Source: Pseudoleptotrichia goodfellowii
GTDB taxonomy: Bacteria; Fusobacteriota; Fusobacteriia; Fusobacteriales; Leptotrichiaceae
Length of the DNA stretch: 64,000 bases
Direction: 5' to 3'
NCBI RefSeq assembly: GCF_007990505.1
Contig: NZ_AP019822.1
Coordinates: 1,178,001 to 1,242,000, forward strand
A model generated the notes under the pieces. It made no database searches. It worked only from the letters and a program-made list of their open reading frames with translations, and was not told the DNA's origin. The position numbers and the translations under genes are program-made. Shown piece by piece: positions 8,439 through 29,431 of the stretch (position 1 is its first letter; the number at the start of each line of letters is the position of its first letter).

Positions 8439-9959
8439 TTGAAAAAAAGAGCTTTGATAAGTGTTTTTGATAAAAGCGGAATACTTGAATTTGCAAGATT
8501 TTTATATGAGAAAAATGTAGAAATAGTATCTACAGGAGGAACATACAGATATTTGAAAGAAAATGGGCTTGAAGTAACTGAAATTTCCGAAGTAACCAAT
8601 TTTAAGGAAATGCTTGACGGAAGAGTGAAAACTCTGCATCCGAATATACATGGAGGAATACTCGCTGTAAGAAATAATAAGGAACATATGGAAACTATTG
8701 AAAAAGAAGGGATTCAAACGATAGATTTTGTAATTGTAAATCTTTATCCTTTTTTCAGAGAAGTACAGACAGATAAAAGTTTTGACGAGAAAATCGAATT
8801 TATCGATATAGGCGGACCTACAATGCTCAGATCCGCTGCAAAGTCTTTTGCAGATGTAACAGTAATATGTGATACCGAAGATTATGCAAAGGTACGGGAA
8901 GAATTGGAAAGTAAAGGGGAAACTTCTTTAGAAACAAGAAAAAAACTGGCAGGAAAAGTGTTTAACCTCACGTCTGCTTATGATGCGGCTATTTCCAATT
9001 TCCTTCTTGATGAAGAATATCCGAAATATTTGAGTTTGTCTTATGAAAAGAAATTTGATTTAAGATACGGAGAAAATCCTCATCAAACTTCAGCTTACTA
9101 TGTGTCAACTACGGAAAATGGAAGTATGAAAAATTTTGTTCAGTTAAACGGAAAAGAATTGTCTTTTAACAATATAAGAGATATGGACATAGCATGGAAA
9201 GTAACTGGAGAATTTGATGAGATAGCCTGCTGTGCGGTAAAACACTCGACTCCATGCGGAACGGCTATAGGAGAAGACGTATTTACAGCCTATAAGAAAG
9301 CTCATGACAGCGACCCTGTTTCTATATTCGGAGGAATTGTTGCAATAAACAGAGAAATAGATGCAAAAACTGCCGAAGAATTAAATAAAATATTTTTAGA
9401 AATAGTAATCGCTCCTTCTTATTCTGAAGAAGCCCTTGAAATATTGAAAAATAAGAAAAATTTGAGAGTAATACAGTGTGAAGTTCCTTGTTCTCAGGAT
9501 AAACTTGAGTATATTAAAGTGGACGGAGGAATACTTGTTCAGGAAACAAACACAAAAATGATAGAAGAAATGAAAGTCGTAACTGAAAAACAACCGAGTG
9601 AAAGAGAAAAACAGGATGTGATTTTGGGAATGAAAGTGGTAAAACACGTCAAATCTAATGCGATTGTAGTAGTGAAAGACGGTACTGCCAAAGGTATCGG
9701 AACAGGTCAGACAAATAGAATATGGGCTACAATTCATGCTCTTGAACATGCCAAAGGAGAAGGAGAATCATTGGAAGGAGCAGTGCTTGCATCTGATGCT
9801 TTTTTCCCGTTCAGAGATTGTGTGGATGAAGCTGCCAAATACGGAATAAAAGCTATAGTACAACCGGGAGGCTCGATGAGAGATCAGGAATCTGTAGATG
9901 CTTGCAATGAACATGGGATAAGTATGGTATTTACAGGGATAAGACATTTTAAACATTAA
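8439..9959 (+). CDS. purH: Bifunctional AICAR transformylase / IMP cyclohydrolase
   Basis: PurH carries out the last two steps to IMP. The 506 residues divide into an N-terminal MGS-like cyclohydrolase domain ([24 protein letters not shown]) and a C-terminal transformylase domain (RYGENPHQ and [10 protein letters not shown] with the catalytic Lys-His pair; the family usually has Asn-Pro after KHT/S, here Thr-Pro). The start is a TTG at 8439 with GGGAGGA eight bases upstream, and no in-frame ATG fits better. A structured repeat begins 8 nt after the stop codon. Confidence 0.96.
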
Positions 9960-9967
9960 ATTTTATA

Positions 9968-10112
9968 CCTACTTTTTTGAAAAAAAGTAGGGCAAAAAAC
10001 TTATCAACCTCAAATTTTACATACTCAAAAATGCCCGTTCGCTACAAAAACAAAAAGGATGTTTTTGTTACGCTCACTAACACATTTTTCACGTTGTAAA
10101 ATTTGAAGGTTG
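9968..10112. repeat. Structured hairpin repeat, copy 1
   Basis: This is a nested palindrome in the purH-purD gap. A first hairpin, CCTACTTTTTT (9968-9978) with AAAAAAGTAGG (9981-9991), is followed by GCAAAAAAC. The main element has an outer stem of CAACCTCAAATTTTAC (10005-10020) and GTAAAATTTGAAGGTTG (10096-10112). Inside it are a middle stem (AAAAATG with CATTTTT) and an inner stem (ACAAAAAC 10044-10051 with GTTTTTGT 10061-10068). Copies 2 and 3 are at 26373-26530 and 28041-28185. The loops of copy 1 and copy 3 are nearly identical once copy 3 is reverse-complemented. The hairpin is not followed by a T-run on this strand, so it is not a standard terminator. Confidence 0.85.
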
Positions 10113-10179
10113 TGGAAGAGTATCTAAAAATTGAAGAAAATTGAGATTATATAAAAAATGTAATAAAAAAGGATTTTGA

Positions 10180-10329
10180 AAAAATAGAAAGAAATTTAAG
10201 AAAAGAAATGAAAAAATTGTAAGCAGTGATCATAAACCTGAAATAAAAATATGTCCTAAATTTATGAGGAAATGCTATTTGGAAGATTGTCCTGAACATC
10301 AGAAACCGGAGGATTTAAAGGAGGAATAA
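10180..10329 (+). other. Cysteine-containing open frame ending in TAATG at purD (small ORF or gene remnant)
   Basis: A frame opens after a stop at 10177-10179 and ends with TAA overlapping the purD ATG by one base (TAATG). It reads a charged peptide with three cysteines (ICPKF, KCYLEDCPEH) and an acidic tail. The only in-frame ATG is at 10263, which would give about 21 residues and has no clear ribosome binding site. It could be the tail of a decayed gene displaced by the upstream repeat, or a coupling leader for purD. I do not recognise a family. Confidence 0.25.
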
Positions 10330-13251: not shown

Positions 13252-16200
13252 ATGAGTAATAATCTTAAACAGATGGAAAAGGATTTAAGAGCATTGGCAA
13301 AAAGATGCAAAGATGTTAAGTATTCAAGAAGTTTATTATTGACTTTTTTATTGACAGGTATGCTTTCTTTTTCAGCGGGTCTTACATCTTCCGAATTGGA
13401 AAATACTGAAAATTCTATAAATTCGGCTAAAAAAGATTTAAATTCATCCATTAACGATATGAAAATTATGTTCAGACAGGCAAAAAGAGATAATAACAGG
13501 TTATTGAAAAATGCCAATTTGGAATTAATTCAACTAATGGAACAGGGAGATCAGGTTATAAAATCTCCATGGAGTTCATGGCAGTTCGGAATGAACTACT
13601 TTTACAACAATTGGAGCGGAACATACAAAGGATTGGGAGATAAACAGGAAAAATATCCCTATGAAGGTATTTATTCAAGAAGTAACTGGAAAGTCAGAAA
13701 TGCAATGGATATGGTTCAAAATAAAAGTACAGGAGGAGGTCCTTTAACTCCGGGAAATGATCCTTTGGGTTCGTGGCAAAACATAAGTAACTCTTCAGGC
13801 GGTATTTCTATTGACAGGGATAATTCAATAAGCTCTTCGACTAACGGAAACAGAAGTTGGGGATTGGTAGATTTGAGAAATCTTAAAGAACCTACATCGG
13901 AAGTTGAGATATTGGCACGTATTTCTCCAAAAGAAGTTACAAAACAGGCTATAACATTGAACATTACTCAGCCTGCAATAAACGAACTGGAGGCACCTAT
14001 AGTAAATCCTCAGGTAAATAAACCTCTGGATGCCCCTGTAATTACGCTTCCTGAAGTTGAGAAAGTGGAAATCAGTGCTTTAAATATAACTGCACCGAGT
14101 GCTCCTACAGCACCGACTGCTCCGGGAGCTCCTGTTATAAATATAAGTATAACACCACCAAACGCACCAAATGCACTGACAGCACCAAGTGCACCATCAG
14201 TGCCAAATATTTCAGTTACACCAAGTGCACCAAGCGTTTTAACAGCACCGAACATAAATATAAATGTAACAGCACCAAGTATTAATGCTTTGACGATAGC
14301 TACACCGCCGACTGTAGTGGCTCCGCAAGTTGTTTCACCACAAATTAAGCCGGTTGATTTTGTTATTGATCCGTCAGGGGATGCTAAAAATGGGTATATT
14401 ATGCGAAGTCAAGCTTGGAATTATTTAGGTGCAATCCCTACAACATTGAATGTAACCGAAAATCATAATGGTAATTTTGTTACTATAAATAACGGTGTAG
14501 GTAATGTATTTACTGTTCCAAGGACTCAAACAATAAATGTAACAAAAGGAAATAATAGAGCTTTAGTTGTAGATGAGGTAAATCAAACAAGAACTATAAG
14601 ATCAGAAGCTACGATTAATCTACAAGCTGTAAAAAATGTAGGAATTGATTTGCAGGGAGGACATAGCGGTTCTGCAACAGCTCCTACAATAGCAACTGTT
14701 GTCAATGCAGGAACTATTACCGGACTTGCAACGGATCCGAGTACAGGGACTGCGAATAAAGAGCACATAGCTTTTGGTTTCAATAATGCTGATGCTTCCA
14801 ACAATACAACAATGACACATATGATAAACGAAAATAAAATAGAATTAAATGCACCTTCAAGTGCCGGAATACAATTAAAACCTGAAGATCCTAATAACTG
14901 GCAACCTGGAAGTTGGGGAGTGACACCTCTTAGAATAGTATCAAGAGATCCTAAAAGTGAACGTGCAAAAGTATTGATGAAAGCTGATAATACAGGAACA
15001 GTTAATTTAAATGGAAGTAAGAGTTTCGGAATATTAACAGTGTTTAATGCCGGTGTTCCAGCAAGTTTGATGGCTCCGGGGGCTAATTATAACGCAAATA
15101 ATCATAATTTAAAAGCAGAAAGAAATATGGCAGGTGTACGTTATTTACCAGGAGGAGAATTGGGACGTTCTGCTCTTGCAGGAGATGCCAATAAAAAATA
15201 TATAAGTGGAATATACAACACAGGAAGTATAAATATACTTGGAGATGAAAGTATTGCTGTCGGTTTATTACAAGAAATACAGGAAGTAATTCTTGAAGGA
15301 AATATCAATATCGGAAATCAGGCATCACTTACTCAAGGAAGTAATGCAAACAGTAAAACAAAAACAGATAAAGTAGAAGAAGCAGTAGGAGTATTTGCGG
15401 GAGTACCTACCCGTCCTGTAAAGGTCAATGAAATTGATAGTATGGGAAATCGAAATACTTCAGGAGATGTAGTAGGTACAAAAACAGTAGAATTACACAA
15501 AAATATCACTTTAGGGGCAGTTGCGGAAAACAGTATAGGGGCTTTGGTTGGAGATACCTCTGTAGACCTGAATGACGGTAAATTAAACGGTACACAAACA
15601 ACAGGACGTAAATTGAATAGAAGTGGGGATATTACTGCAAAATCAGGCTCAACTATTACTGTAGGAGGAATAAAAAACTACGGATTTGTAGTAAATAACT
15701 CTGCTCATTCTTCAGAATTCGGTGCTACTTTAGATGACTTAAGATACAGTGTCGATAAAGTGAATCATGGAAGAGGAATAAACGAAGGAACAATAAACGT
15801 AACAGGAAATGAATCTGTCGGTTTTGCTTTAATAAAAGGTGGAAATTCTTCAAACAGCGGAACAATAAGTGTAAAAGATAATGCAGAAAACTCTATTGGT
15901 TTCTATGGAAAAGAAGACACTTTTGCAAATACCGGAACAATACAGGTAACATCTACTAAAAAGAAAAATAAAGCTATCGTTTTGGACGGACAGACGGCAG
16001 CGAATAAAATAAATTTCACTAATACAGGTAATATATATGTAAATGTGGGAGAAAACGGGAATACAAACTTAATCGGAACCGAAAATATAGGAATTTATGC
16101 TCAAGGAAATTATAAATTTGATCATAATGGCGGAACTGTAAAAGCAGGAAGCAATGCTATTGCTTTCTATGTGAAAGATGCAACAGGAGAAGTAAATGTA

Positions 16201-19200
16201 AAAGCTCCTATAGTATTATCTGACAGCGGAACAGGTGCTAATGCAGGAACAACAATAGGAATATATTCTGACGGAAATGCAAAAGTTAAGTTTAACAGTA
16301 CAAAACTAACAATAGGTGAAAGAGCAGTAGGACTTTATTCATCTGACGGAACAAAATTTAATAATACATTTGAAATTAACGCCGGAAAAACATTAGAAGT
16401 AGTATTAGGTAAAAATTCAACTTTTGGACTTTTAAAAGGGAATGCTACTTCACCGTTGTTAAGTAAATATTTAAATAATAATTCGTCAAATAAAATAAAT
16501 ATAACTACTTTTGGAGAAGGAGCAAGTATATTTTATGCTACAGATACTGGAAAAGCTGTTTTAGATTCTGATTATACTGTAACAAACGGCGGAGCAGCTT
16601 CAACTTCGGTATTGGTAGGAACAAACGGATCTACTGTAGAAGTTGCTGCAGGAAAAACATTGACAACAAATACCAATGTAGGACTTATTGCAACTAAAGG
16701 AAGCGGAACTGCTTCGACAGCATTAAACTCAGGAAATATTGTGTCCAACAGAGATAACGGAATAGGAATTTATACAGAAGGAAGTACAGGAACTAACAAA
16801 GGAACTGTTACAATGAAAAATCAAGCTTCTGTTGCTATTTTAGGAGAAAATAATTCTACATTACTTAATGATACCACAGGAAAAATAGTATTGGAAAAAG
16901 GACAGTCAGCAGGAATTTATGGAAGTAACTCAAATATTACAAATAAAGGAGCAACATCTCCAAATACCGGAATTTATGTTCAGGATTCAGGCTTAGCAGG
17001 AATTTACGGATTGTTGTCTAGTAATGCCGATAAAACTTTAAGCAATGAAGGACTAATAAAACTTGAAGGGAGTGCCAAATCAGGTTCGGCAGGAATTTAT
17101 GCAAAACTGACAAGTACTTCAAATAAATTGACTACTAATAACAGCGGAACTATTGAAGTAGTACAGACAAGTTCAACAGGAATTTATGCGGAAAATGCTT
17201 CTGCACAAAATAATACAAAATCAGAAGTTAATAACAGCGGATTTATTAAAGTAAGCGGAGCAAATTCGGTAGGAATTACAGGAAAGAAATCCAAAATAAC
17301 AAATTCAGGAACGGGAGCTAACAAAGGAATTGAACTTTCGGCAAACGGCTCTGCAGGAATTTTGGCAAGTGATAATTCTGAAGTTAATAACAGCGGAAGA
17401 ATAGAAAGTACAGCAGGAACAGGTTTAGTCGGTATTTCAGTAGATGGAACTTCTACTGCCAATAATAGCGGAACTATTACTATAGGGACTTTATCAAGTA
17501 CAGCTATATCAAGTGAAGGAGGAGCTGTAACAAATTCGGGAACAGTTACTTTGGCTAAAGAAAGTTCAACAGGTATATCCGTTAAAAACGGAAATATTAC
17601 TAATACATCTTCAGGAAATATAGAAGTAAAAGATAAAAATTCAGTAGGTATATATGCAAATTTAACAACCGGAGCTACTCAAAATGTAAGTAGTGCGGGA
17701 ACAATTTCACTATTGACTCCGACAGGTGTTCCTGAAAAATCGGCAGCTATTTACAGTCTCTACGACAGTGCTGCAACAGGAACTTTAAATACAACAAATA
17801 CAGGAACTATTGATGTAGATCAAAAAGGTTCAGTGGGTATTTTTGCTAAAAATGAAAGCACTCAGGATAAAACTAAATCCAATGCTGTTAACAACAAAAT
17901 AATTACTGTTAAAAAAGAAGGCTCTGCAGGAATGTTGGGAGAAAAATCAACTTTAAAAAATACTCCAACTGCTGCTAATGAAGGAATTATTCTGTCGGCT
18001 ATAAAAACAGCAGGAATGATAGGAAATGCAAAATCCGATGTAATTAACAGCGGAAATATAGAAACAAAAACAGCAACGCCTACAGCTGCCGCTGAGGGAT
18101 TAGTAGGAATTTCACTGGACGACTCGACAGGAGTTAATGAAACTTCGGGAAAAATTACTTTGGGAACTGATTTCTCTACAGGAATGTATGGTAAAAACAG
18201 TTCAACATTAACAAACAAAGGAAATATTACAGGAAATAATAAAAATGCAGTAGGTATGGCAGCTGATAATTCTACGGCTGTTAATGAAGCTGCAGGAACT
18301 ATAACTTTAAACAAAAAAGAATCTACAGGAATATTCGGTAAAACAAGTCAGGAACTAAGAAATAAAGGTAACATTATCGGAAATGCAGAAAAAGCTGTAG
18401 GTATAGTAGGAGAAAGCTCGAAAATATATAATGATAACGGAGCCGCAATTACTCTAAAAGGAAAAACTTCTACAGGAATATTCGGTGAAGTTAATTCTAC
18501 TGTTACAAATGCAGGAAAAATAGAGACTACGACAGCAACGCCTGCAAATGCCGGCGAAGGACTGACAGGGATTTCCTTGAATGCTTCAACTGCTACTAAT
18601 ACTTCAACAGGACAAATTATACTGGGAACAGAATACTCTACAGGAATATTCGGTGAAGCTGCTTCGACACTGACAAATGAAGGAAGTATTACAGGAAGCA
18701 AAGCGTATGCGGTAGGTATGGCAGGAAAAGCATCTACAGTAACTAATAAGAATATTATTACTTTGGATAAAGCAAACTCCACAGGAATATTCGGTCAGGA
18801 TAATTCTACTTTGCTGAACGACACAAATGGAACGATTACATTAAAAGAAGACAGTTCGGTAGGAATATATTCCAAATCAAATTCTGCAACGGCTAAAAAC
18901 CTCGGAACTATAGTAATGGAAAAGAAAAGTTCAGCGGGAATGTTGGGAGATGAAGCAGAGCTTGAAAACAGTAACTCTATAACAACAAAAGACGAGAAGT
19001 CTGCAGGAATGTTTGCTAAAAATACAAATGCAATAAATAAGAAAAATATAAATGTTGATGGAAAAGAGTCTGCGGGAATATTGATTCAGTTAGACGGAAA
19101 AGACAAAGTTCTTTCGGGAGTTAATGATGCGTCTACCGGAACTATTAATATAAACAATGAACTTTCAGCGGGAATGTTAGGAAAAATAACTTCAGCATCA

Positions 19201-20952
19201 GGACCTTCGGCAAGTTCCAAAGTAACATTGGAAAATAAAAATAATATTATTGTTACTGCAAAAAAATCTGTAGGAATGATGGTAGACAATGATTCTACAA
19301 CAGTTGCAAAAGGAAATGTAAAAGCTGAAAATACAGGTACAATTACATTAACAGCAGGCACAAGCAATGAAGAAAACATCGGTATTCTGGCAAATAAAAA
19401 TGCTACAGGAATAAATAAAGGAGCAATAAATGTAAACAGTAAAAAATCTGTAGGTATGTTGGGACAGGCCGCTTCAGATGTTACGAATGAAAAAACTGTT
19501 ACTGTGGCAAGTGAAGAAGCAATCGGCATGTTGGCAAAAGGAACAAATTCTTCAGCAATAAACAAAAATTTAATAAATATTACTGCCAATAAATCTTTAG
19601 GAATGATGGCGGAAAGCGGAGCTAAAATTACAAATGAAAAAACTGTTACATTGGCAGGTGAAGAAGGTGTCGGCATGTTAGCAAAAGGAGCAAACTCCGA
19701 AGCTGACAACAAAGATACAATCAATGTAAGAGGTAAAAAATCATTAGGTATGCTGTCGGAAGATTCGGCATCTGTAAAAAATAATAAGAATATAGAAGTA
19801 GAAGCTGAAAGCGGAGTAGGAATATTTGTCCGTGATAACGGAACAGGAACGGGAACAGGAGAAAATACTTCTACAGGAACAATTAATCTTAAAAATAAAA
19901 ATGCAGTTGGAATTTTCGCTAAAAATAACGGAACAGGAAATTCTGCTAAAAACTCGGGAATTATTAATTTGGCAGGAGCTGCAGGACAAAATTACGAATC
20001 ATTGATAGGAATGTTTGCACAGGCAGAAGCAGGAAAAAATGCAAATGTGGAAAATGCAAATATTATTAATGTAAATACAAATAAATCAGTAGGAATGTAC
20101 GCAAAAAATGATGCTGCAAATACCGAGTCAGCTGTAATATTAAATAATCAAAACGGAACAATAAATATAAACAGTGCCGGATCTGCAGGAATTTATGCAC
20201 CGAAAGCAACTGTTTCCAAAGTAGGAACAGTTAATTTGAAAGATTCTGTTGACACAAACGGTTCTTCGGCAGTATATGTCTCAGAGGGAGGAAAAGTAGC
20301 AGATACAGACAGTGCGGTTATCAATCTGGGTACTGTAAATCAAAACAGAGTTGCATACTATGTAAACGGTGCTAACAGCTCATTGGCAGGTACAAATATC
20401 GGAAAAGTTTCCGGATACGGAGTAGGAGTTTATTTACAGGGAAATTCGGCTTCGGATATTGCTGCATTGACTGCATCTACGCCTGAATTGAATTATAAAA
20501 ATAATGGACTTAGCGGAAACGGAATAATAGGACTGTTATTAAAAGGCAATACGGATATAAGCAACTATACAAAGAAAATTACTGTGGGAGATACTGTTGA
20601 TAAAAATGCTGCTGTTTCGGGAGATAAAGCAAAATATGCAATAGGTGTATATGCTGACGGTCAGGGAACAACTGCAGCAACGCCTTATGAAATAAAAGCC
20701 GATATTACAACAGGTAAAAACGGAGTAGGAATATTTGCCGATGAAGACAGTCACATTAAATACAGCGGAAATATGAAAATCGGAGACGGAACAACTGCCG
20801 GAACGGGAATATTTATTACTAAGAAAAAAGGAGCAACAGGAGGAAGTGTAACTCTGACTTCAAACACAATCGAATTGTTAGGAACAGGAGGAGTTGCGGT
20901 TATTGCTTCGGAAGGTACTACAATTAACGGAGAACTGCTACAATTAAATTAG
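13252..20952 (+). CDS. Giant autotransporter adhesin, N-terminal 2566 residues (frameshifted)
   Basis: This is the first part of a type V-secreted surface protein. Residues 1-25 are charged, followed by a hydrophobic stretch (about 26-43) ending SFSAG, which is the extended signal region typical of fusobacterial autotransporters. A predicted coiled-coil segment (about 45-100) and an aromatic stretch (SPWSSWQFGMNYFYNNW) complete the family's N-terminal domain. Residues about 280-365 form an Ala-Pro-rich linker, and the rest is a long beta-helix-like passenger with recurring G-[IM]-[FLY]-[GA] turns (STGIFG, SAGMLG, VGMMA). AAGGAG supports the start. The frame ends at 20952, but the passenger continues in another frame, so this is not the true C-terminus and the product as written has no membrane anchor. 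Confidence 0.9.
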   Translation: MSNNLKQMEKDLRALAKRCKDVKYSRSLLLTFLLTGMLSFSAGLTSSELENTENSINSAKKDLNSSINDMKIMFRQAKRDNNRLLKNANLELIQLMEQGDQVIKSPWSSWQFGMNYFYNNWSGTYKGLGDKQEKYPYEGIYSRSNWKVRNAMDMVQNKSTGGGPLTPGNDPLGSWQNISNSSGGISIDRDNSISSSTNGNRSWGLVDLRNLKEPTSEVEILARISPKEVTKQAITLNITQPAINELEAPIVNPQVNKPLDAPVITLPEVEKVEISALNITAPSAPTAPTAPGAPVINISITPPNAPNALTAPSAPSVPNISVTPSAPSVLTAPNININVTAPSINALTIATPPTVVAPQVVSPQIKPVDFVIDPSGDAKNGYIMRSQAWNYLGAIPTTLNVTENHNGNFVTINNGVGNVFTVPRTQTINVTKGNNRALVVDEVNQTRTIRSEATINLQAVKNVGIDLQGGHSGSATAPTIATVVNAGTITGLATDPSTGTANKEHIAFGFNNADASNNTTMTHMINENKIELNAPSSAGIQLKPEDPNNWQPGSWGVTPLRIVSRDPKSERAKVLMKADNTGTVNLNGSKSFGILTVFNAGVPASLMAPGANYNANNHNLKAERNMAGVRYLPGGELGRSALAGDANKKYISGIYNTGSINILGDESIAVGLLQEIQEVILEGNINIGNQASLTQGSNANSKTKTDKVEEAVGVFAGVPTRPVKVNEIDSMGNRNTSGDVVGTKTVELHKNITLGAVAENSIGALVGDTSVDLNDGKLNGTQTTGRKLNRSGDITAKSGSTITVGGIKNYGFVVNNSAHSSEFGATLDDLRYSVDKVNHGRGINEGTINVTGNESVGFALIKGGNSSNSGTISVKDNAENSIGFYGKEDTFANTGTIQVTSTKKKNKAIVLDGQTAANKINFTNTGNIYVNVGENGNTNLIGTENIGIYAQGNYKFDHNGGTVKAGSNAIAFYVKDATGEVNVKAPIVLSDSGTGANAGTTIGIYSDGNAKVKFNSTKLTIGERAVGLYSSDGTKFNNTFEINAGKTLEVVLGKNSTFGLLKGNATSPLLSKYLNNNSSNKINITTFGEGASIFYATDTGKAVLDSDYTVTNGGAASTSVLVGTNGSTVEVAAGKTLTTNTNVGLIATKGSGTASTALNSGNIVSNRDNGIGIYTEGSTGTNKGTVTMKNQASVAILGENNSTLLNDTTGKIVLEKGQSAGIYGSNSNITNKGATSPNTGIYVQDSGLAGIYGLLSSNADKTLSNEGLIKLEGSAKSGSAGIYAKLTSTSNKLTTNNSGTIEVVQTSSTGIYAENASAQNNTKSEVNNSGFIKVSGANSVGITGKKSKITNSGTGANKGIELSANGSAGILASDNSEVNNSGRIESTAGTGLVGISVDGTSTANNSGTITIGTLSSTAISSEGGAVTNSGTVTLAKESSTGISVKNGNITNTSSGNIEVKDKNSVGIYANLTTGATQNVSSAGTISLLTPTGVPEKSAAIYSLYDSAATGTLNTTNTGTIDVDQKGSVGIFAKNESTQDKTKSNAVNNKIITVKKEGSAGMLGEKSTLKNTPTAANEGIILSAIKTAGMIGNAKSDVINSGNIETKTATPTAAAEGLVGISLDDSTGVNETSGKITLGTDFSTGMYGKNSSTLTNKGNITGNNKNAVGMAADNSTAVNEAAGTITLNKKESTGIFGKTSQELRNKGNIIGNAEKAVGIVGESSKIYNDNGAAITLKGKTSTGIFGEVNSTVTNAGKIETTTATPANAGEGLTGISLNASTATNTSTGQIILGTEYSTGIFGEAASTLTNEGSITGSKAYAVGMAGKASTVTNKNIITLDKANSTGIFGQDNSTLLNDTNGTITLKEDSSVGIYSKSNSATAKNLGTIVMEKKSSAGMLGDEAELENSNSITTKDEKSAGMFAKNTNAINKKNINVDGKESAGILIQLDGKDKVLSGVNDASTGTININNELSAGMLGKITSASGPSASSKVTLENKNNIIVTAKKSVGMMVDNDSTTVAKGNVKAENTGTITLTAGTSNEENIGILANKNATGINKGAINVNSKKSVGMLGQAASDVTNEKTVTVASEEAIGMLAKGTNSSAINKNLINITANKSLGMMAESGAKITNEKTVTLAGEEGVGMLAKGANSEADNKDTINVRGKKSLGMLSEDSASVKNNKNIEVEAESGVGIFVRDNGTGTGTGENTSTGTINLKNKNAVGIFAKNNGTGNSAKNSGIINLAGAAGQNYESLIGMFAQAEAGKNANVENANIINVNTNKSVGMYAKNDAANTESAVILNNQNGTININSAGSAGIYAPKATVSKVGTVNLKDSVDTNGSSAVYVSEGGKVADTDSAVINLGTVNQNRVAYYVNGANSSLAGTNIGKVSGYGVGVYLQGNSASDIAALTASTPELNYKNNGLSGNGIIGLLLKGNTDISNYTKKITVGDTVDKNAAVSGDKAKYAIGVYADGQGTTAATPYEIKADITTGKNGVGIFADEDSHIKYSGNMKIGDGTTAGTGIFITKKKGATGGSVTLTSNTIELLGTGGVAVIASEGTTINGELLQLN
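18055..18800 (+). repeat. Intragenic duplicated block in the adhesin passenger
   Basis: Two blocks offset by about 461 nt share the same order of segments. The GCAACGCCT tract occurs near 18074 and 18535, then GGxATTTC, TCTACAGGAAT, ACAAA[CT][GA]AAGGA and GTAGGTATGGCAG. Related 49-codon units recur further on, with AATGAAAAAACTGTTAC at 19486 and 19633. These homologous tracts can recombine and change passenger length. Confidence 0.6.
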
Positions 20953-21110
20953 TAGGTACGAACATCAAAGGTGTAGGAGTTTACGGTAAAAAAGGATCAA
21001 ATATCAATGTAGGAAGCTGGAATTTTGAAAATAACGGAAATCAGGCTGAAGAAATCCGTTCGGAAGAAGGCGGAGCTTACGTTACTACCAATAAAACTTT
21101 AAATCCGAGA

Positions 21111-24100
21111 ATGGTATTAACTCATGTTATTAACGGAGAAACAGGAATAGACAGCGGAAAAACAGTTACATCCGTAGCTGACGGATCTATAGCAGCCACA
21201 GAAAATATAGGACTTATGGCAGAAGGAATTAAAAATCCTACTTCTCCATTAGCCGGAGGATGGAGATACCCTAACTTTGAAGTTGTAAATCAGGGAACTG
21301 TTGATTTCTCGGCAGCTGAAAAATCTACAGGAATTTTTGCCAATTCAGCGAGAGTTCAAAATGACGGAGTAATAAAAGTTGGAAAAAATTCAACGGCTAT
21401 TTACGGTATTTATAAACATGATACAAGAAAATACGACGGAGCACCTGCAGGCTTTGAAAATGAATTAAAATTGGAAACAACAGCAAATTCAGATATAATT
21501 TTAGGCGATAATTCAACAGGAATGTATCTGATAAATGCCCAAACAATAAACAATCTCGGCGGAGAAATAAAATCCGATACAGGAGCAACAAGAAACGTCG
21601 GTATATATGCAATAAACGGACATGATACAACAGCTGCAAATAATAAAGTTCTGACAATGAATACAGCTGCTAAAATAACTTTAGGAGACGGTTCAGTAGG
21701 ACTTTACAGTAAAGGACAGTCGGATACTGTAAGAAATATTGTAACTAATACAGGAGATGTTACTGTAGGCAAAAAATTGGAAGACACAAGTGTAACACCT
21801 AAAAAAGAATATCCTTCGGTTGCATTCTATGCTGAAAATACTAATTTGGATACAAATTCAAATATTACTGTAGGACAGGAAGGAATTGCTTTCTACGGAA
21901 AACATTCGGATATAGTTGCAAGAGGTACTGCAAATATTTCAAATAAAGGAGTATTGGCATATCTTGAAAATTCCAGATTTATTTCTCATTTGGGAAATTT
22001 GAGTTCCACTCAAAATACAATGCTTTATCTGAAAAACAGTATCGCTCAATTAGACGGAGCCGGAACATCTGTTGATATGGACGTGGCGGACGGATATACG
22101 GGAGCATACATTGAAGGAAATTCGCAACTGACAGGAATAAAAAATATTACATTGGGAAGAGGATCTACGGGACTTTTCTTAAAAGATGCAAACTTTACTT
22201 CACAAGCTGACAAAATTATCGGAACTCAGGAAGATGCAAAAGGAATATTATCCGTAAATTCCAATTTGACAAATAACAGTAAAATTGAGTTAAGCGGAGA
22301 TAATTCTATAGGAATTTATTCAAATGCCGATAATACAAAAAATGTAATCAATAACGGAGAATTAACTGTATCAGGTAAGAAAACACTGGGAGTATTCCTG
22401 AAAGGCGGACAGTCTTTTGAAAATAATGCAAATATAAATATAGGAGATTCTGCAAATGCGACAGAGCCGACAATAGGTATATTTACTACAGAAGGAACTT
22501 CAAATATTAGACATAATACAGGAACAATAGAAGTAGGAGAAAAATCCATAGGTATTTATTCTACAACTAATTCCAATGTGGAAATAAACAGCGGTAAAAT
22601 CCATGTTAAAGATCAGGGAATCGGAATATATAAACAGGACGGAAAAGTTGATTTAAGAGGTGAACTGAACATAGATCCTCACACTGCAACAGCAGTAAAT
22701 TCAGAGCCTACAGGAGTGTATGGAGTAAACGGAGCTGAAATAAACGATCAGGCTTCTAAAATCACAATAGGCGATAAATCTTACGGATTTATTCTGAATA
22801 ATACAGATCCGATTAAAACCAACGTATATAATAATACAAATTTCGGACCTGTAACTATGGGAAATAACAGTGTATTCTTATATTCCAACGGAAAAGCCGT
22901 TATTAACAATAACAGAGATTTAAATTCAAACGGTTCGGAACATTTGATAGGGTTCTATATTAAAAACGGCGGAGAATTTACTAATAACGGAACTGTTGAT
23001 TTCTCCACAGGAAAAGGTAATATAGGAATTTATGCACCGGGAGGAACTGCAACAAACAAAGGAAGAGTACTGGTAGGTCTTACAGACGATATAGATCCTC
23101 TAACAGGAAATGTTTATACAGATCCGACTAAAATTGTATACGGTATAGGAATGGCTGCAGATAACGGCGGACATCTTATAAATGACGGAGAAGTAAGAGT
23201 TTACGGAAATAAATCTATAGGATTATTCGGATCGGGAGCAGGAACAATAGTCGAAAATACTCCTAACGGAAGAATCTTACTGGATGGAAGCAGAGCGACT
23301 GCTACTGATAAAATTCAGGCAATGACAGGTGTTTACGTGGATGAAGGAGCTACTTTCAGAAACTACGGAACTATCCAGACAACGGATTCTTATGCGGGAA
23401 GAGACGGAAAAGTAAATCCTAATGTCAGTGGACTTGCGGGAGTTGCGGTTATGAACGGATCTACTCTTGAAAATCACGGAAAAATCTTAATAGATGCCGA
23501 TAACAGTTACGGAGTAGTTATAAGAGGTAAAAGAGCTGCAGATGGTACTGTGGAAAAATATGCAGTAATTAAAAACTACGGAGAAATAAGAGTAAGAGGT
23601 AAAGGAACAACAGGAATCAGCTGGAAAAATGTAAGCAGAGCCGACATTGAAGAATTGGAAAGACAAATTAACAGCAGATTATCTTCGGATCCGAGCGGAC
23701 AGGAATTGAGACAGGCAGGCGGAACGGATAAAAGCTTTGAAGATGTTACAATTACTGTAAAAGACGGAAAACCTACTTTCTCAAGAAACGGAGTAAAAGT
23801 TTCCGAAGATGAAATTGAAGAAATTGACAAAATATTGGGAACTCAGTCAAATCTTGGATTGTCGGATATAGGATTCTATATTGATACTTTAGGAAGAACA
23901 AAACCTATTGATATTGACGGAGCAACTCCTCCGATAAACAGCCAGTTGATTATCGGTACTGAATACTCTGAAAAAACTAATAAGAAACAATGGTTTGTAA
24001 AAGAAGACGTAATAAAACCTTTCCTTGACCAGATTCAGGGAAGAAACTTCAAATTGACTTCTTTGGCAGGTTCATTGACTTGGGTAGCAACTCCTGTCCT

Positions 24101-25265
24101 TGATAATCACGGACAGATAAAAGGTGTCGCAATGGCAAAATTGGCTTATACTTCTTTTGTGAGAACGACGGACAATGCTTATAACTTCACAGACGGACTG
24201 GAACAAAGATACGATATGAATACTCTTGATTCTGCTGAAAAAAGAATATTCAATAAGTTAAACGGAATCGGAAAAAATGAAGAAACTCTCTTGACACAGG
24301 CATTTGACGAAATGATGGGACATCAGTATGCGAATGTTCAGCAAAGAACAGCATCTACAGGAAGAGCATTGGATAAAGAAATTACTCATTTGAGAAAAGA
24401 ATGGGATAATAAAACTAAAAATTCCAATAAGATAAAAGTGTTCGGAATGAAAGATGAATATAATACAGATACCGCAGGAATAATAGACTACACAAGTAAT
24501 GCTTACGGAGTGGCTTATGTTCATGAAAATGAAACAATTAAGTTGGGAAATTCAAGCGGATGGTATGCAGGAGCTGTAAACAATACATTCAAGTTTAAAG
24601 ACATAGGAAGATCAAAAGAAAACACTACTATGTTAAAACTCGGAGCATTTAAGTCGACAGCATTCGACCATAACGGAAGCTTGAACTGGACAGTATCGGG
24701 AGAAGGTTATATAGCAAGAAGCGATATGCATAGAAAATTCTTAGTAGTAGATGAAATCTTTAACGCAAAATCAAGCTATAATACTTACGGAACTGCAATC
24801 AAAAATGAAATAAGCAAAGAGTTCAGAACAGGAGAAAAATTCAGTATAAGACCTTACGGAAGTTTAAAACTTGAATACGGAAGATTCAACACAATTAAGG
24901 AAAAAGACGGAGAAATGAGACTTGAAATAAAAGGAAACGATTATTACTCTGTAAAACCTGAAGTAGGAATCGAATTCAAATATAAACAACCTATGGCAGT
25001 TAAAACAATGTTTACAACTACATTAGGCTTAGGATATGAAAACGAGCTTGGAAAAGTAGGAGATACAAAAAATAAAGGAAGAGTGGCATATACTGATGCG
25101 GACTGGTTTGATATAAGAGGAGAAAAAGACGACAGAAAAGGAAACTTTAAAGCCGACTTGAATATCGGAATAGAAAATCAGAGATTCGGAGTAACATTAA
25201 ACGGAGGATATGACACAAAAGGTAAAAATATAAGAGGAGGATTGGGAATTAGAGTTATTTACTAA
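21111..25265 (+). CDS. Giant autotransporter adhesin, C-terminal part with beta-barrel (downstream of frameshift)
   Basis: This is the continuation of the adhesin. Its reading frame is open from 20928, and the sense sequence from about 20934 (TATIKLVGTNIKGVGVYG) continues the passenger of the first ORF directly. The ATG at 21111 is only the first available Met and has no convincing ribosome binding site. The 1384 residues from that Met hold more beta-helix repeats, a linker region, and an autotransporter barrel over roughly the last 280 residues, ending NIRGGLGIRVIY with a terminal aromatic residue as outer-membrane barrels do. Joining the frames over a 2-nt difference gives one protein of about 4003 residues. 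As the sequence stands, the barrel is separated from its signal peptide. Confidence 0.85.
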   Translation: MVLTHVINGETGIDSGKTVTSVADGSIAATENIGLMAEGIKNPTSPLAGGWRYPNFEVVNQGTVDFSAAEKSTGIFANSARVQNDGVIKVGKNSTAIYGIYKHDTRKYDGAPAGFENELKLETTANSDIILGDNSTGMYLINAQTINNLGGEIKSDTGATRNVGIYAINGHDTTAANNKVLTMNTAAKITLGDGSVGLYSKGQSDTVRNIVTNTGDVTVGKKLEDTSVTPKKEYPSVAFYAENTNLDTNSNITVGQEGIAFYGKHSDIVARGTANISNKGVLAYLENSRFISHLGNLSSTQNTMLYLKNSIAQLDGAGTSVDMDVADGYTGAYIEGNSQLTGIKNITLGRGSTGLFLKDANFTSQADKIIGTQEDAKGILSVNSNLTNNSKIELSGDNSIGIYSNADNTKNVINNGELTVSGKKTLGVFLKGGQSFENNANINIGDSANATEPTIGIFTTEGTSNIRHNTGTIEVGEKSIGIYSTTNSNVEINSGKIHVKDQGIGIYKQDGKVDLRGELNIDPHTATAVNSEPTGVYGVNGAEINDQASKITIGDKSYGFILNNTDPIKTNVYNNTNFGPVTMGNNSVFLYSNGKAVINNNRDLNSNGSEHLIGFYIKNGGEFTNNGTVDFSTGKGNIGIYAPGGTATNKGRVLVGLTDDIDPLTGNVYTDPTKIVYGIGMAADNGGHLINDGEVRVYGNKSIGLFGSGAGTIVENTPNGRILLDGSRATATDKIQAMTGVYVDEGATFRNYGTIQTTDSYAGRDGKVNPNVSGLAGVAVMNGSTLENHGKILIDADNSYGVVIRGKRAADGTVEKYAVIKNYGEIRVRGKGTTGISWKNVSRADIEELERQINSRLSSDPSGQELRQAGGTDKSFEDVTITVKDGKPTFSRNGVKVSEDEIEEIDKILGTQSNLGLSDIGFYIDTLGRTKPIDIDGATPPINSQLIIGTEYSEKTNKKQWFVKEDVIKPFLDQIQGRNFKLTSLAGSLTWVATPVLDNHGQIKGVAMAKLAYTSFVRTTDNAYNFTDGLEQRYDMNTLDSAEKRIFNKLNGIGKNEETLLTQAFDEMMGHQYANVQQRTASTGRALDKEITHLRKEWDNKTKNSNKIKVFGMKDEYNTDTAGIIDYTSNAYGVAYVHENETIKLGNSSGWYAGAVNNTFKFKDIGRSKENTTMLKLGAFKSTAFDHNGSLNWTVSGEGYIARSDMHRKFLVVDEIFNAKSSYNTYGTAIKNEISKEFRTGEKFSIRPYGSLKLEYGRFNTIKEKDGEMRLEIKGNDYYSVKPEVGIEFKYKQPMAVKTMFTTTLGLGYENELGKVGDTKNKGRVAYTDADWFDIRGEKDDRKGNFKADLNIGIENQRFGVTLNGGYDTKGKNIRGGLGIRVIY

Positions 25266-25420: not shown

Positions 25421-26365
25421 ATGAAAAAAAGAAGAATTTATTTGAATCATAACGGCGGAGTGGACGATTTGATTTCATTATATCTGCTGTTGAAAATGGA
25501 AGATGCGGAATTAGTCGGAGTAAGTGTTATGGATGCGGACTGTTATATACAACCGGCAGCTTCGGCAACAAGAAAAATTATAGAAAAATTCGGTTCCGAA
25601 AAAGATAAAAAAATAAAAATTGCATTATCGGATTCAAGGGCAGTAAATCCTTTTCCGAAAGATTGGAGAATGCATGCGTTTGTTGTAGATGCACTTCCTA
25701 TTTTAAACGAAAAGAAACCTTTAACAGTAGAAGAATCAAATATAAAAGCACATGAAGATATAATTCGTGTGCTGAAAGAATCTGATGAAAAAACTGATCT
25801 TGTATTTATAGAACCACTGACAGATTTGGCAAGAGCATTGGATAAAGATTCGAGTATAGAAGAAAAAATCGGGAAATTGTACTGGATGGGAGGAACATTC
25901 TTGGAACACGGTAATGTAGAAGAACCTGAACATGACGGAACGGCAGAATGGAATGTTTACTGGGATCCCTTTGCAGCTAAAAGAGTATGGGAATCAAATA
26001 TAAAAATAGAACTTGTAGCTTTGGAAAGTACGAGAATGGTACCTTTAACGGCAGAAGTACGTGATATGTGGGCAAGTCAGCGAAAATATGAAGGAGTGGA
26101 CTTTTTAGGTCAATGTTATGCAACAGTATCTCCATTAACTCATTTTGTAACAAATTCCACTTATTTTTTGTGGGATGTACTGACAACTGCATCTTTCGGT
26201 AAAGAAAACCTTGTAAAAAGAGAAGTTGTAAACAGTGATGTAATAACAGAAGGTCCAAACAGAGGAAGAACTGTCAGAAAAGAAAACGGACGTCCTGTAG
26301 ATTTGGTTTATCATGTTGACAGAGACAGTTTTTTTGAGTATATAACGGATTTGGCGAAGCAATAG
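25421..26365 (+). CDS. Nucleoside hydrolase-family protein with atypical metal motif
   Basis: A 314-residue member of the inosine/uridine-preferring nucleoside hydrolase family, which cleaves ribonucleosides to base and ribose. The usual N-terminal calcium site DxDPGxDD is here NHNGGVDD: the first two Asp are Asn and the Pro is Gly, while the DD pair is kept. Other hallmarks are present: the YWMGG loop, AEWNVYWDP in place of the common AEFNIYADP, and a C-terminal WDV Asp. It may be a divergent subfamily with another substrate. It has its own extended -10 promoter and is not in an operon. A canonical paralog lies at 34133-35071. A structured repeat starts 7 nt after the stop. Confidence 0.85.
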   Translation: MKKRRIYLNHNGGVDDLISLYLLLKMEDAELVGVSVMDADCYIQPAASATRKIIEKFGSEKDKKIKIALSDSRAVNPFPKDWRMHAFVVDALPILNEKKPLTVEESNIKAHEDIIRVLKESDEKTDLVFIEPLTDLARALDKDSSIEEKIGKLYWMGGTFLEHGNVEEPEHDGTAEWNVYWDPFAAKRVWESNIKIELVALESTRMVPLTAEVRDMWASQRKYEGVDFLGQCYATVSPLTHFVTNSTYFLWDVLTTASFGKENLVKREVVNSDVITEGPNRGRTVRKENGRPVDLVYHVDRDSFFEYITDLAKQ

Positions 26366-26372
26366 TTTTTAA

Positions 26373-26530
26373 CTTCCTTTTTTCAAAAAAGGAAGCGAAA
26401 AAACATCCGACTAAAATTTTACTAATTCAAAATAACTCATTCCACAACAAAAACAACTGTTTGAGCGTAGCGAGTCTGTTGTTTTTGTAACGTTTCATTC
26501 GTATTTTTCAAAGTAAAATTTTAATGTCGG
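26373..26530. repeat. Structured hairpin repeat, copy 2
   Basis: The first hairpin is CTTCCTTTTTT (26373-26383) with AAAAAAGGAAG (26385-26395), followed by CGAAAAAAC as in copy 1. The outer stem is CCGACTAAAATTTTACT (26407-26423) with AGTAAAATTTTAATGTCGG (ending 26530), and the inner stem is ACAAAAACAAC with GTTGTTTTTGT. Stem sequences differ from copy 1 but remain complementary. Confidence 0.8.
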
Positions 26531-26684
26531 GAGAAAGTCAGATAATATTAGAGTAATAATTAAAAATAAGACATGGAAACTTGCAGAAAAATATGCAAGA
26601 GATAGTTTTAATAATTTTAAACCTGACAATCAAAGTATAAAATAGTAAGGGAAATTTTTATAATGAAATAGATAAGATAAAAAA
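26531..26684 (+). other. Gap between repeat 2 and the IS91 remnant, with a short open frame
   Basis: A frame across 26531-26645 reads a lysine-rich peptide ending KLAEKYARDSFNNFKPDN and a stop (TAG at 26643-26645). It has no start codon or ribosome binding site in sight and is probably the tail of a decayed gene. Nothing else is recognisable. Confidence 0.2.
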
Positions 26685-27951
26685 AGCCGAATTGAAATTC
26701 GGCTGATTTTTTTGTATACTGTATTTATGACTAGTAAACACTTTATACAAAATAAACTGAAAACTATCTTCAGTAATAAAAACATTGTACTAAATTCTTT
26801 AAACTTTTGCAAGAAAAATTATCTTAACCCTAAACACCTTCAATATATTAAATTTTCTATCTCTAAATTTCTTGCTTGTAGAGATTTATCCAAAGGCTTT
26901 GTTTCTTTCAAATGCCCTAACTGTCCTATTACTTACAAATTCCCTCTTTCCTGTAAATCCAGACTCTGTCCTTCTTGCGGTTACAAATATTCGCAACTTT
27001 GGACTGATAATATTCATAAACATATTCTAAACATTCCTCACAGACATGTTCTTTTTACTATTCCTAAAGCATGCAGAATATTTCTAAAAAGAATAAAAGA
27101 ATTAATAAAATTTCCAAATCTTCTAAATATTACTTCACTGATTCTGATATTCTTCATTATGGTCTTATTTCTGTTATTCATACTTTCGGGCGTGATTTAA
27201 AATGGAATCCTCATATTCACGCTATCGTTTCTCTCGGAGGATTTAATAAAATTTTGATTTTAAAAACTTGAATACTTTAATGTTGATACTATTGCAGCTC
27301 AATGGAAATATCACGTCCTTGATATTATTTCTAAGGGGAACTATCCTAATCAAAAAATTAAAAGATTAGCTAAAATTACTGTCAATAAGCTATATAGTCA
27401 AAATGCAAGATTCTTTTTTAATGTCAGAAGCGGTGATGTCAATAACACCAAAGGTATTATCAAATACTTAGGTCGATATCTTGCACGTTCTCCTATTGCT
27501 GAGTATAAAATTACTGATATTACTGACAATGAAGTTACTTTCTTTTACAATGATTTAGCTAATGATAAACAAAAACATTTATTACTATGCCTATTCAAAA
27601 ATTTATTTCCCAAATTTTAATCCATGTACCTCCTAAAAATTTTAAAATGGTTAATAGATATGGACTATATGCAAGACATATTTCCAATAAGCTAAAAAGA
27701 GCTGTTATTCCTTTTAAGAAGAATATTGTCCCTAATAAATTTTCTTTTTATCAAAGACAAACATTTAAAACTTTCGGTATAAATCCTTTCTATTGTCCTA
27801 TATGTAACATTAGAATGATTGTATGGGAATTTTATCATTATTTATATCCCAAACCTAAAAGATATTATTAAATCTTTTTAATCCAACTATGTTGGATATT
27901 TTGTCATACATTTTTTTTGATAAAAAGATAATAAAGAGGCTTACGCCTCTT
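26685..27951 (+). mobile_element. Decayed IS91-type (rolling-circle) insertion element
   Basis: The body is a broken IS91-family transposase bounded by hairpins. On the left, AGCCGAAT (26685-26692) pairs with ATTCGGCT (26697-26704), followed by seven Ts. On the right, ATCCAAC/GTTGGAT (27881-27897) is followed by AAGAGGC/GCCTCTT (27934-27951). IS91 elements end in hairpin-bearing ori and ter sites rather than terminal inverted repeats, which fits, but the exact ends cannot be fixed. The element lies between structured repeat copies 2 and 3. Confidence 0.6.
26727..27871 (+). pseudogene. IS91-family transposase, multiply frameshifted
   Basis: The N-terminal zinc-binding domain is intact: FKCPNC, CKSRLCPSCG and the IPHRHVLFTIPK segment. 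Near 27070 the frame breaks, probably with a deletion, and continues as GRDLKWNPHIHAIVSLGG, which carries the HUH metal-binding motif. A lesion near 27250 and another near 27270 shift it to EYFNVDTIAAQWKYH and ARFFFNVRSGDV. A further shift near 27580 leads to the C-terminal MPIQKF, SFYQRQTFKTFG and CPICNIRM zinc-like segment. At least four lesions make it non-functional. The likely original start is the ATG at 26727. Confidence 0.85.
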
Positions 27952-28040
27952 ATATAATTTGCAAAATATATTATTAAATCACTTTTTAAACATTTTTATA
28001 ATCATTAAATTTAAATTTACTTTCCTTAGGAATAAAAAAA

Positions 28041-28185
28041 CAACCTCCAGATTTTACAACGAAAAAAATGTGTTAGTGAGTGTTATGAAAATATCTTTTT
28101 TATTTTCATAACGAACGGGCATTTTTGAGTATGTAAAATTTGAGGTTGTTAAGTGGGAGTATGAGGGCGACGTTTAAGCCCTCAT
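28041..28185. repeat. Structured hairpin repeat, copy 3 (inverted relative to copy 1)
   Basis: The outer stem is CAACCTCCAGATTTTAC (28041-28057) with GTAAAATTTGAGGTTG (28133-28148). The inner stem GTTATGAAAAT (28082-28092) pairs perfectly with ATTTTCATAAC (28102-28112). A separate hairpin ATGAGGGC/GCCCTCAT (28161-28168, 28178-28185) lies next to the stop of the leftward permease gene. Reverse-complemented, the loops match copy 1 almost base for base while the inner stem differs by paired changes. The flanking 27952-28040 is featureless AT-rich DNA. Confidence 0.85.
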
Positions 28186-28195
28186 AAATATAATA

Positions 28196-29431
28196 TTAGC
28201 ATTCTGTATCATCAATAAACTCATCTTCCATAAGTTTTTTAAGGTTTTCAGGCATATTGTCTATTATAGGATTGTTGTTTTCTTTAGGACTGTTATCCCT
28301 ACTATTTCTTGAAGCTGAATCATCGCTATCTTCCGAAGTGTCGCTGAATATTTCCCTGAAAAATCCTATCTCTAGTTCTTTTGAAAAAACATTTTTCAAT
28401 ATAATCATAACTACAGGCCCTATAAGAAATCCCATAACTCCGAAAAACTTGAATCCCGAATACATTGATATTAAAGTTACCAGAGGATGTACACCTATGT
28501 TTTGACTTATAAGTTTAGGCTCAAGCATCTGTCTTACAGAAAGCACCAGCAGATAAATCAGAATTAGTGCTATTCCGAGCTTTATATCTCCAAGAATAAA
28601 CGATATTCCTGCCCACGGAAGTAAAACAGCACCTGCTCCCAATATAGGCAATGCATCAATCAGACAAATTACAATAGATATTAATAACGGATATGAAACA
28701 TTAAATTCGAGGAAAAATAATATATTAAAAGAAATCAGTAACTCGAAAAAACATATCGTCATAAGAATAATCTGTGCTTTAACATAAGAGCCAAGCACTG
28801 TAAACATCTCTCTTTTTATATTATATACTTTTCTGAGCCACGATTCAGGAAGCTGCTGTTCGAGAAAATTCAATATTTCTTTTTTATCAAGACTTATGAA
28901 AAAAGTTGATAACACTGTAATACATATATATATTATTATTGTCGGGATCGAAGTAACAAAATATATAAGACCGTTTATAAAACGACCGAATTTTGATGAT
29001 CCCATTGAGATAAATCCGGCAACGGAATTTTTAATCTGTTCTGTAAATCCTTTGGGCAGATAACCTAAATATATATGACTCTGATCGATAGTCAAAGTCC
29101 ATAATCTTTTAAATTCTTCAGCATAATTGTTTATATTTTTGGAAAGTTTATAAATTTCCCCGAAAAGTCTGAGAGAAGTAATACTTATAAAACTTAGGAA
29201 AAATAATAAGAATACAACTATTGACGTAATTGTGGCAAATTTTTTGGAAAATTTCAGTTTGTTTTGTAAAAAATTTGCAAAAGGCTGAGTTATTATGGAA
29301 AAAAATACAGCTATTACAAAAGGAAAAAGAAATATTCCCAATTTGAAAAGCAGAAGTATCATAATAAGTATTAAAACTATATACAGTATAAAGTATAATT
29401 TTTTAAAATCGAATCTTTTATAATTTGACAT
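28196..29431 (-). CDS. AI-2E family transporter / PerM-like permease
   Basis: A 411-residue inner-membrane protein with about eight hydrophobic segments: two near the N-terminus (about 12-52), one at about 65-90, one at about 150-180, and a C-terminal cluster from about 215 to 345. It ends in a long acidic, Ser/Asp-rich soluble tail. The layout and the LPGAG-like segment (ALPILGAGAVLLPW) fit the AI-2E exporter/PerM/YtvI superfamily. Members export the quorum signal AI-2, act as Na+/H+ antiporters or have no known substrate, so none is assigned here. AAGGGG precedes the ATG. It is a single-gene unit on the minus strand, divergent from the exporter operon. Confidence 0.85.
   Translation of the reverse strand: MSNYKRFDFKKLYFILYIVLILIMILLLFKLGIFLFPFVIAVFFSIITQPFANFLQNKLKFSKKFATITSIVVFLLFFLSFISITSLRLFGEIYKLSKNINNYAEEFKRLWTLTIDQSHIYLGYLPKGFTEQIKNSVAGFISMGSSKFGRFINGLIYFVTSIPTIIIYICITVLSTFFISLDKKEILNFLEQQLPESWLRKVYNIKREMFTVLGSYVKAQIILMTICFFELLISFNILFFLEFNVSYPLLISIVICLIDALPILGAGAVLLPWAGISFILGDIKLGIALILIYLLVLSVRQMLEPKLISQNIGVHPLVTLISMYSGFKFFGVMGFLIGPVVMIILKNVFSKELEIGFFREIFSDTSEDSDDSASRNSRDNSPKENNNPIIDNMPENLKKLMEDEFIDDTEC

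Follow-up and report, generated by a model that had tools for sequence, protein, structure and literature searches.

The 64,000-nucleotide window of the Pseudoleptotrichia goodfellowii genome analysed here (contig NZ_AP019822.1, positions 1,178,001 to 1,242,000) holds three nested palindromes, each directly behind the stop codon of a gene. This raises the question of what places folded DNA of this kind at gene ends. A preliminary description had proposed that the palindromes depend on their folded structure, that they were inserted near gene ends or act in 3'-end processing, and that they could be a small non-autonomous mobile element. We evaluated these proposals with fold and covariation statistics, genome-wide searches, a placement null and comparison with relatives.

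All three elements were recovered where they had first been noticed, and against dinucleotide shuffles their folds gave z-scores of -6.9, -3.1 and -8.8 (copies 1, 2 and 3) in a window of 32.3% G+C. As shown in Table 1, each lies 7-9 nt from the upstream stop, in agreement with the spacing of about 10 nt first estimated, and Pfam matches bore out the naming of the upstream genes. In every copy a short hairpin (H1) is separated by about 10-13 nt from a second, long and interrupted one (H2). The copies had been said to share loops as well as layout. The layout is indeed common to all, but the loops of copy 2 belong to a different core family, F2 (CCGACTAAAATTTTAC..GTAAAATTTTAATGTCGG), and it is layout and H1 type that this copy has in common with copy 1. 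Compared with the 21 further copies of F2, moreover, the apical loop of copy 2 is inverted between intact arms. Copy 3 is 87% complementary to copy 1 over 115 nt, with an H1 (GAGGGC..GCCCTC) that differs from that of copies 1 and 2. The opposite orientation reported for the loops of copies 1 and 3 holds on the forward strand but not relative to the genes; copy 3 seems inverted because it and its gene both lie on the minus strand, and all three copies have an identical direction relative to their upstream genes. Elsewhere in the window, 13252-25265 encodes two repetitive reading frames of great length (2566 and 1384 aa), of which the latter includes an autotransporter beta-domain (PF03797).

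Table 1. Features around the three repeat copies (window coordinates; covariance-model, CM, matches in genome coordinates)
Feature	Position	Strand	Basis or remark
purH stop codon (TAA)	9957..9959	+	purH (AICARFT/IMPCHase) by Pfam
Copy 1 H1, type A (CCTACTTTTTTG..AAAAAGTAGG), 8 nt past stop	9968..9991	+	sequence, fold
Copy 1 H2, core F1; inner stem 10044-10052 / 10060-10068	10005..10112	+	fold; CM match G000:C1:1188003-1188116, 137.9 bits
Nucleoside hydrolase stop codon (TAG)	26363..26365	+	PF01156
Copy 2 H1, type A (CTTCCTTTTTT..AAAAAAGGAAG), 7 nt past stop	26373..26395	+	fold
Copy 2 H2, core F2 (CCGAC..GTCGG)	26407..26531	+	CM match 1204405-1204533, 55.5 bits
Degenerate IS91-like element (Zn_Tnp_IS91, Y2_Tnp fragments)	26677..28039	+	3' end abuts copy 3 H2
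Copy 3 H2, core F1; stem extends to 28039-28150	28041..28148	-	CM match 1206037-1206150, 133.4 bits
Copy 3 H1, type B (TATGAGGGC..GCCCTCATA), 9 nt past AI-2E transporter gene stop	28160..28186	-	fold
AI-2E transporter gene stop codon (TAA); gene 28196-29431	28196..28198	-	PF01594

The repeat extends well beyond the window. A BLAST search with copy 1 returned 67 matches, many of which overlap one another, in the 2,290,729-base genome that holds the window (2.29 Mb, hereafter G000). The genome-wide covariance-model search suggested at the outset, using a model built on 29 copies and a cut-off of roughly E=1e-5, returned about 66 separate sites, including cores unlike copy 1 in sequence; an absence of further copies is thus contradicted by both methods across the whole genome. 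A related repeat with H1 of type B and the core F4 (CCCGC..GCGGG) contributed about 35 more copies in a BLAST search with the F4 sequence, for a total of about 100 copies of short folded repeats in the genome.

These units are modular. H1 occurs as type A (CTACTTTTTT or CTTCCTTTTTT stems, then GCAAAAAA), type B (GAGGGC..GCCCTC, then ACTCC) or type C (AGGGG..CCCCT, then ACCCC), and the cores include F1 (CAAC..GTTG; copies 1 and 3), F2 (CGAC..GTCG; copy 2) and F5, the last found within a tandem CDI/fhaB-type array at 46-58 kb. Different H1 types can be joined to one core, as with F1, which is found behind all three. Near-identical H1 hairpins at the duplicated gene ends 716816 and 2137349 are followed by F1 and F2 cores, respectively, a case of module swapping, and at many sites an older truncated unit (H1 and left arm) stands directly before a complete one. 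The array around F5 (L073, G000:C1:42000-60000) combines C-terminal fragments of the fhaB/CDI type with small genes that resemble those of lipoproteins; most of these small genes are followed, 5-10 nt past the stop, by an F5 repeat in reverse, at a spacing of about 1 kb. F4 with H1 type B recurs in a second repeated gene cluster, at G000:C1:2110841-2128886 and 725846-729096, with the same flank (TTGTCTGATTATCTACATAGGCTCTGC), which suggests a segmental duplication carrying the repeat.

The paired inner-stem changes first seen between the window copies proved to be real over 29 copies, with UA:22/CG:7, GC:23/AU:5 and CG:22/UA:4/UG:3 at three pairs. In this alignment 98.4% of cells pair, 25 cells are changed on both sides as against 5.2 in shuffles (none of 500 shuffles reached the observed value), and the structure outscores every slid version of itself. 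Compensated positions lie in the outer, middle and inner stems. G-U exceeds A-C in four of five alignments (60 versus 38 cells in total, the cells not being independent), a weak excess of the kind expected under RNA-level selection and a slight indication of a role for the sense strand. The covariation had been taken as the signature of selection for, or dependence on, the fold. That the fold is maintained is upheld by these data, but paired changes by themselves would be produced alike by selection and by copying of one arm from the other at the DNA level.

Insertion near gene ends was evaluated at the 61 sites that lie outside the CDI array, where the tandem copies are reversed. At 32 of them the core starts 16-49 nt past the stop of a same-strand gene; 8.6 were expected, and the maximum in 20,000 draws was 21, when units were put at random and with random direction in the same gaps (genes called by a simple longest-ORF procedure). 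Placement is therefore well beyond chance, and this Monte-Carlo test contradicts a random position relative to genes. The upstream gene is on the strand of the unit at 49/61 sites, while the other 12/61 face no same-strand gene end, and in most sites H1 starts 0-12 nt past the stop. Between codirectional genes, 34 units are sense and nine antisense (p=1.7e-4). For most copies the orientation of the gene and the direction of replication cannot be told apart, but six sense copies would lie on the lagging strand with a terminus near 1.2 Mb, which indicates that direction follows the gene at least there. The first hairpin lies no more than 15 nt from the stop in 35/45 element-bearing (sense) genes, compared with 25/233 other genes, and F4 obeys the same rule, with seven of nine sense copies starting at most 14 nt past the stop. 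Four coding sequences end inside H1 (954026, 1259535, 1813781 and 2162651). At 1763652, in translations made by eye, the orthologues in two congeners, G001 and G002, end in MPWEK*, whereas the element-bearing gene ends in MPWE* right before H1. Such ends indicate that insertion of a unit just ahead of the old stop codon can provide the gene with a new one. Among element genes, TAG stops are over-represented (16/45 versus 34/194, p=0.013).

Position behind a stop would also suit a terminator. The immediate T-run of an intrinsic terminator, however, follows the foot of H2 in only 8/49 sense copies (2/35 of type A, 6/14 of type B/C), and its absence from the other 41 argues that most units are not simple intrinsic terminators. 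Insertion between a stop and its native terminator is not claimed as a general rule, as a native terminator downstream of the unit is clear in only 3/49.

BLAST over 60 relatives found many copies in the congeners G001 and G002, one in G009, which belongs to another genus, and 25-base matches only in two further genomes. The covariance model matched 55 times in G001, 23 in G002 and twice in G009, with no match in a search of five other relatives. The comparison of orthologous sites proposed for sister strains was made in sister species: gene ends traced into G001, G002 and G009 were mostly empty, the purH end was occupied in G000, G001 and G002, and further occupied ends were found in G001 (1322406 and 1863837). 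Intergenic DNA at these ends is too diverged between the species to display clean insertion ends or target duplications. The clade-limited spread, the filled and empty sites and the coding sequences ending inside H1 look like those of the small non-autonomous mobile element first suggested.

A tree of 68 cores, which rests on few columns and has many weak forks, grouped the purH copies of the three species with other copies of their own species. This suggests that the same gene end is held by species-specific types, through re-insertion or conversion. The gap concerned, between purH and purD of the pur operon (window 9960-10328), thus carries a structured repeat in three species, each with its own version. 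One G002 copy (L343, G002:C21:14757-14870) is 91% identical to window copy 1 and sits among G000 copies in the tree, as might follow from a recent transfer between species. In G001, some F1 units belong to composites about 430 nt long, in which H1 and F1 are followed by a conserved linker and then by a long hairpin and an H1, both reversed.

No gene that could move the repeat was found among the enzyme families searched. Y1 transposase (PF01797) is absent from G000 and G001 and present as one broken copy in G002; reverse transcriptase (RVT_1) was found in none of the three. The Y1-rich relatives G004 and G018 have no copy of the repeat by BLAST. Mobilisation by a RAYT/IS200 system was rejected on the absence of Y1 genes from G000 and G001. 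The IS91-like transposase was rejected as well, given that comparison with the transposon ends in G000 found its ends unrelated to the repeat, and that G002 has the repeat but no Y2 match. A transposon between facing copies was rejected too, as no transposase was seen by eye in the ORFs near the copies at 1.004-1.016 Mb, 954 kb and 1.85 Mb. No parent insertion sequence was found among the Y1, reverse transcriptase and IS91-like families.

The IS91-like element beside copy 3 is a neighbour and not part of the repeat. G000 has six such elements with Y2_Tnp and Zn_Tnp_IS91 matches (L031, L033, L034, L035, L037 and L038), 96-99% identical, the one in the window being degenerate. The 3' end lies within a few nucleotides of a hairpin or terminator-like palindrome in 6/6 copies (five identified by script, the sixth beside H2 of window copy 3), against a background of about 24% of positions. 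The element may target hairpins, with H2 of copy 3 as one such target.

Other explanations were weighed against these results. If the hairpins were immobile, vertically inherited 3'-UTR or terminator structures acting in cis, alike through common descent or conversion, the shared occupation of the purH end and of two more ends in G001 would follow, as would a position resembling that of ordinary terminators and the T-runs of type B/C copies. Against this stand copies 80-95% identical behind unrelated genes, orthologous ends that are mostly empty, the general scarcity of T-runs and the H1 hairpins that cut into coding sequences, and we regard this explanation as distinctly unlikely. Somewhat unlikely, in our judgement, is a mutational origin of the covariation, in which template switching during replication homogenises the palindrome arms and stop-proximal position reflects tolerance of inserts. 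The inverted apical loop of copy 2 indicates that these sequences also undergo hairpin events at the DNA level, so that template switching has to be taken seriously, in place of selection, as a source of part of the covariation; the weakness of the G-U excess favours it too. G-U intermediates are nonetheless present in the covarying pairs, and insert tolerance alone leaves the narrow distance and the sense orientation unexplained.

REP-type elements moved by RAYT, an IS200/IS605-like Y1 transposase, resemble the repeat in stop proximity, paired inverted hairpins and clade-limited spread (PMC3733652, PMC12306157), but the distribution of Y1 genes runs against such an origin both in the two repeat-richest genomes and in the Y1-rich relatives, leaving it very improbable. 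Integron-like attC sites, folded recombination sites behind the stops of captured genes, would likewise be palindromes foldable as single strands, in fixed orientation right after stops. The copies here, in contrast, are single and scattered behind core genes such as purH that have orthologues in sister species, with no cassette array, and a relation to attC is hardly credible.

We therefore consider it probable that the repeats form a non-autonomous family, dependent on structure, which settles at gene ends and turns there into a hairpin pair in the sense 3' UTR. Its unit of about 110-150 nt would join one of three interchangeable small hairpins (H1) to one of several core families (H2), and would have spread within a small clade, one genus with traces in a neighbouring one, by a trans-acting enzyme or by conversion between copies. 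It would land at the stop codon or a few nucleotides before or after it, mostly with H1 towards the gene, and be transcribed into the 3' UTR of the coding strand. Hairpins of E. coli REPs within 15 nt of a stop slow the terminating ribosome, and effects on mRNA stability are expected (PMC12306157). This precedent counts in favour of a like effect of H1, which, within about 12 nt of the stop, may slow the terminating ribosome, with H2 as a putative barrier to 3' exonucleases; the repeats probably affect how messages end. If placement reflects targeting, the family finds gene ends, or is restricted to them, with no REP transposase of the known sort, and the route by which REP-like repeats reach stop codons can be tested in a new lineage. 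Should selection be responsible instead, dozens of unrelated genes have in common a 3'-UTR structure that can be exchanged among them, and its effects on translation termination and mRNA decay are measurable. A bolder proposal, speculative and on our estimate fairly unlikely, is that the repeats represent mobile DNA of a new class, able to read gene ends: an enzyme would insert the modular two-hairpin element in sense directly at stop codons, and newer copies would displace older ones in place time and again, so that one gene end is reoccupied in different species and unrelated genes come to share their 3' UTRs as an exchangeable regulatory part.

No published description of these repeats was found in the open-licence literature. 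Plasmid and phage collections gave no match to the repeat. Rfam covariance models matched nothing in the window at the gathering threshold, and over 9900-10200 there was no hit even at E values of up to 1. The likeness to E. coli REPs lies in many intergenic copies with a hairpin directly after the stop (PMC12306157), within 15 nt of it in 35/45 sense copies here. REPs, however, are hairpins of 20-40 nt tagged by an unpaired GTAG or CGTC and served by RAYT, whereas the present repeat is a two-hairpin unit of 110-150 nt with interchangeable H1 types, has GTAG only within some H1 stems, and abounds in genomes without RAYT (G000 and G001). Low-GC firmicutes have AT-rich stable stem-loops near the stop codons of upstream genes, described as terminator-like (PMC1590033); most copies here differ in the missing T-run at the foot of H2 and in belonging to dispersed sequence families.

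Closer in build are the dispersed palindromic repeats. ERIC, Correia/NEMIS and RUP are 100-150 bp long, with long inverted repeats and many intergenic copies (PMC2229807), and the present repeat resembles them in these features, but no TA-terminated terminal inverted repeats were seen in it and no parent insertion sequence was found among the families searched. As with MITEs, it is short, present in many copies and without coding capacity, and at orthologous loci most ends are empty and some occupied. The YPAL (RU-2) repeat of Yersinia is a palindrome of about 168 bp that lacks TA ends; its filled and empty sites are the ground for regarding it as mobile, and it is tied to the transcripts of upstream genes and has target sites near dyad symmetry and variable target duplications (PMC2229807). 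We set the present repeat beside YPAL by description, for its palindromic build and its filled and empty sites, and claim no relation in sequence. By analogy, it may work like the E. coli REPs, but without RAYT, and be built like repeats of the YPAL or MITE type.
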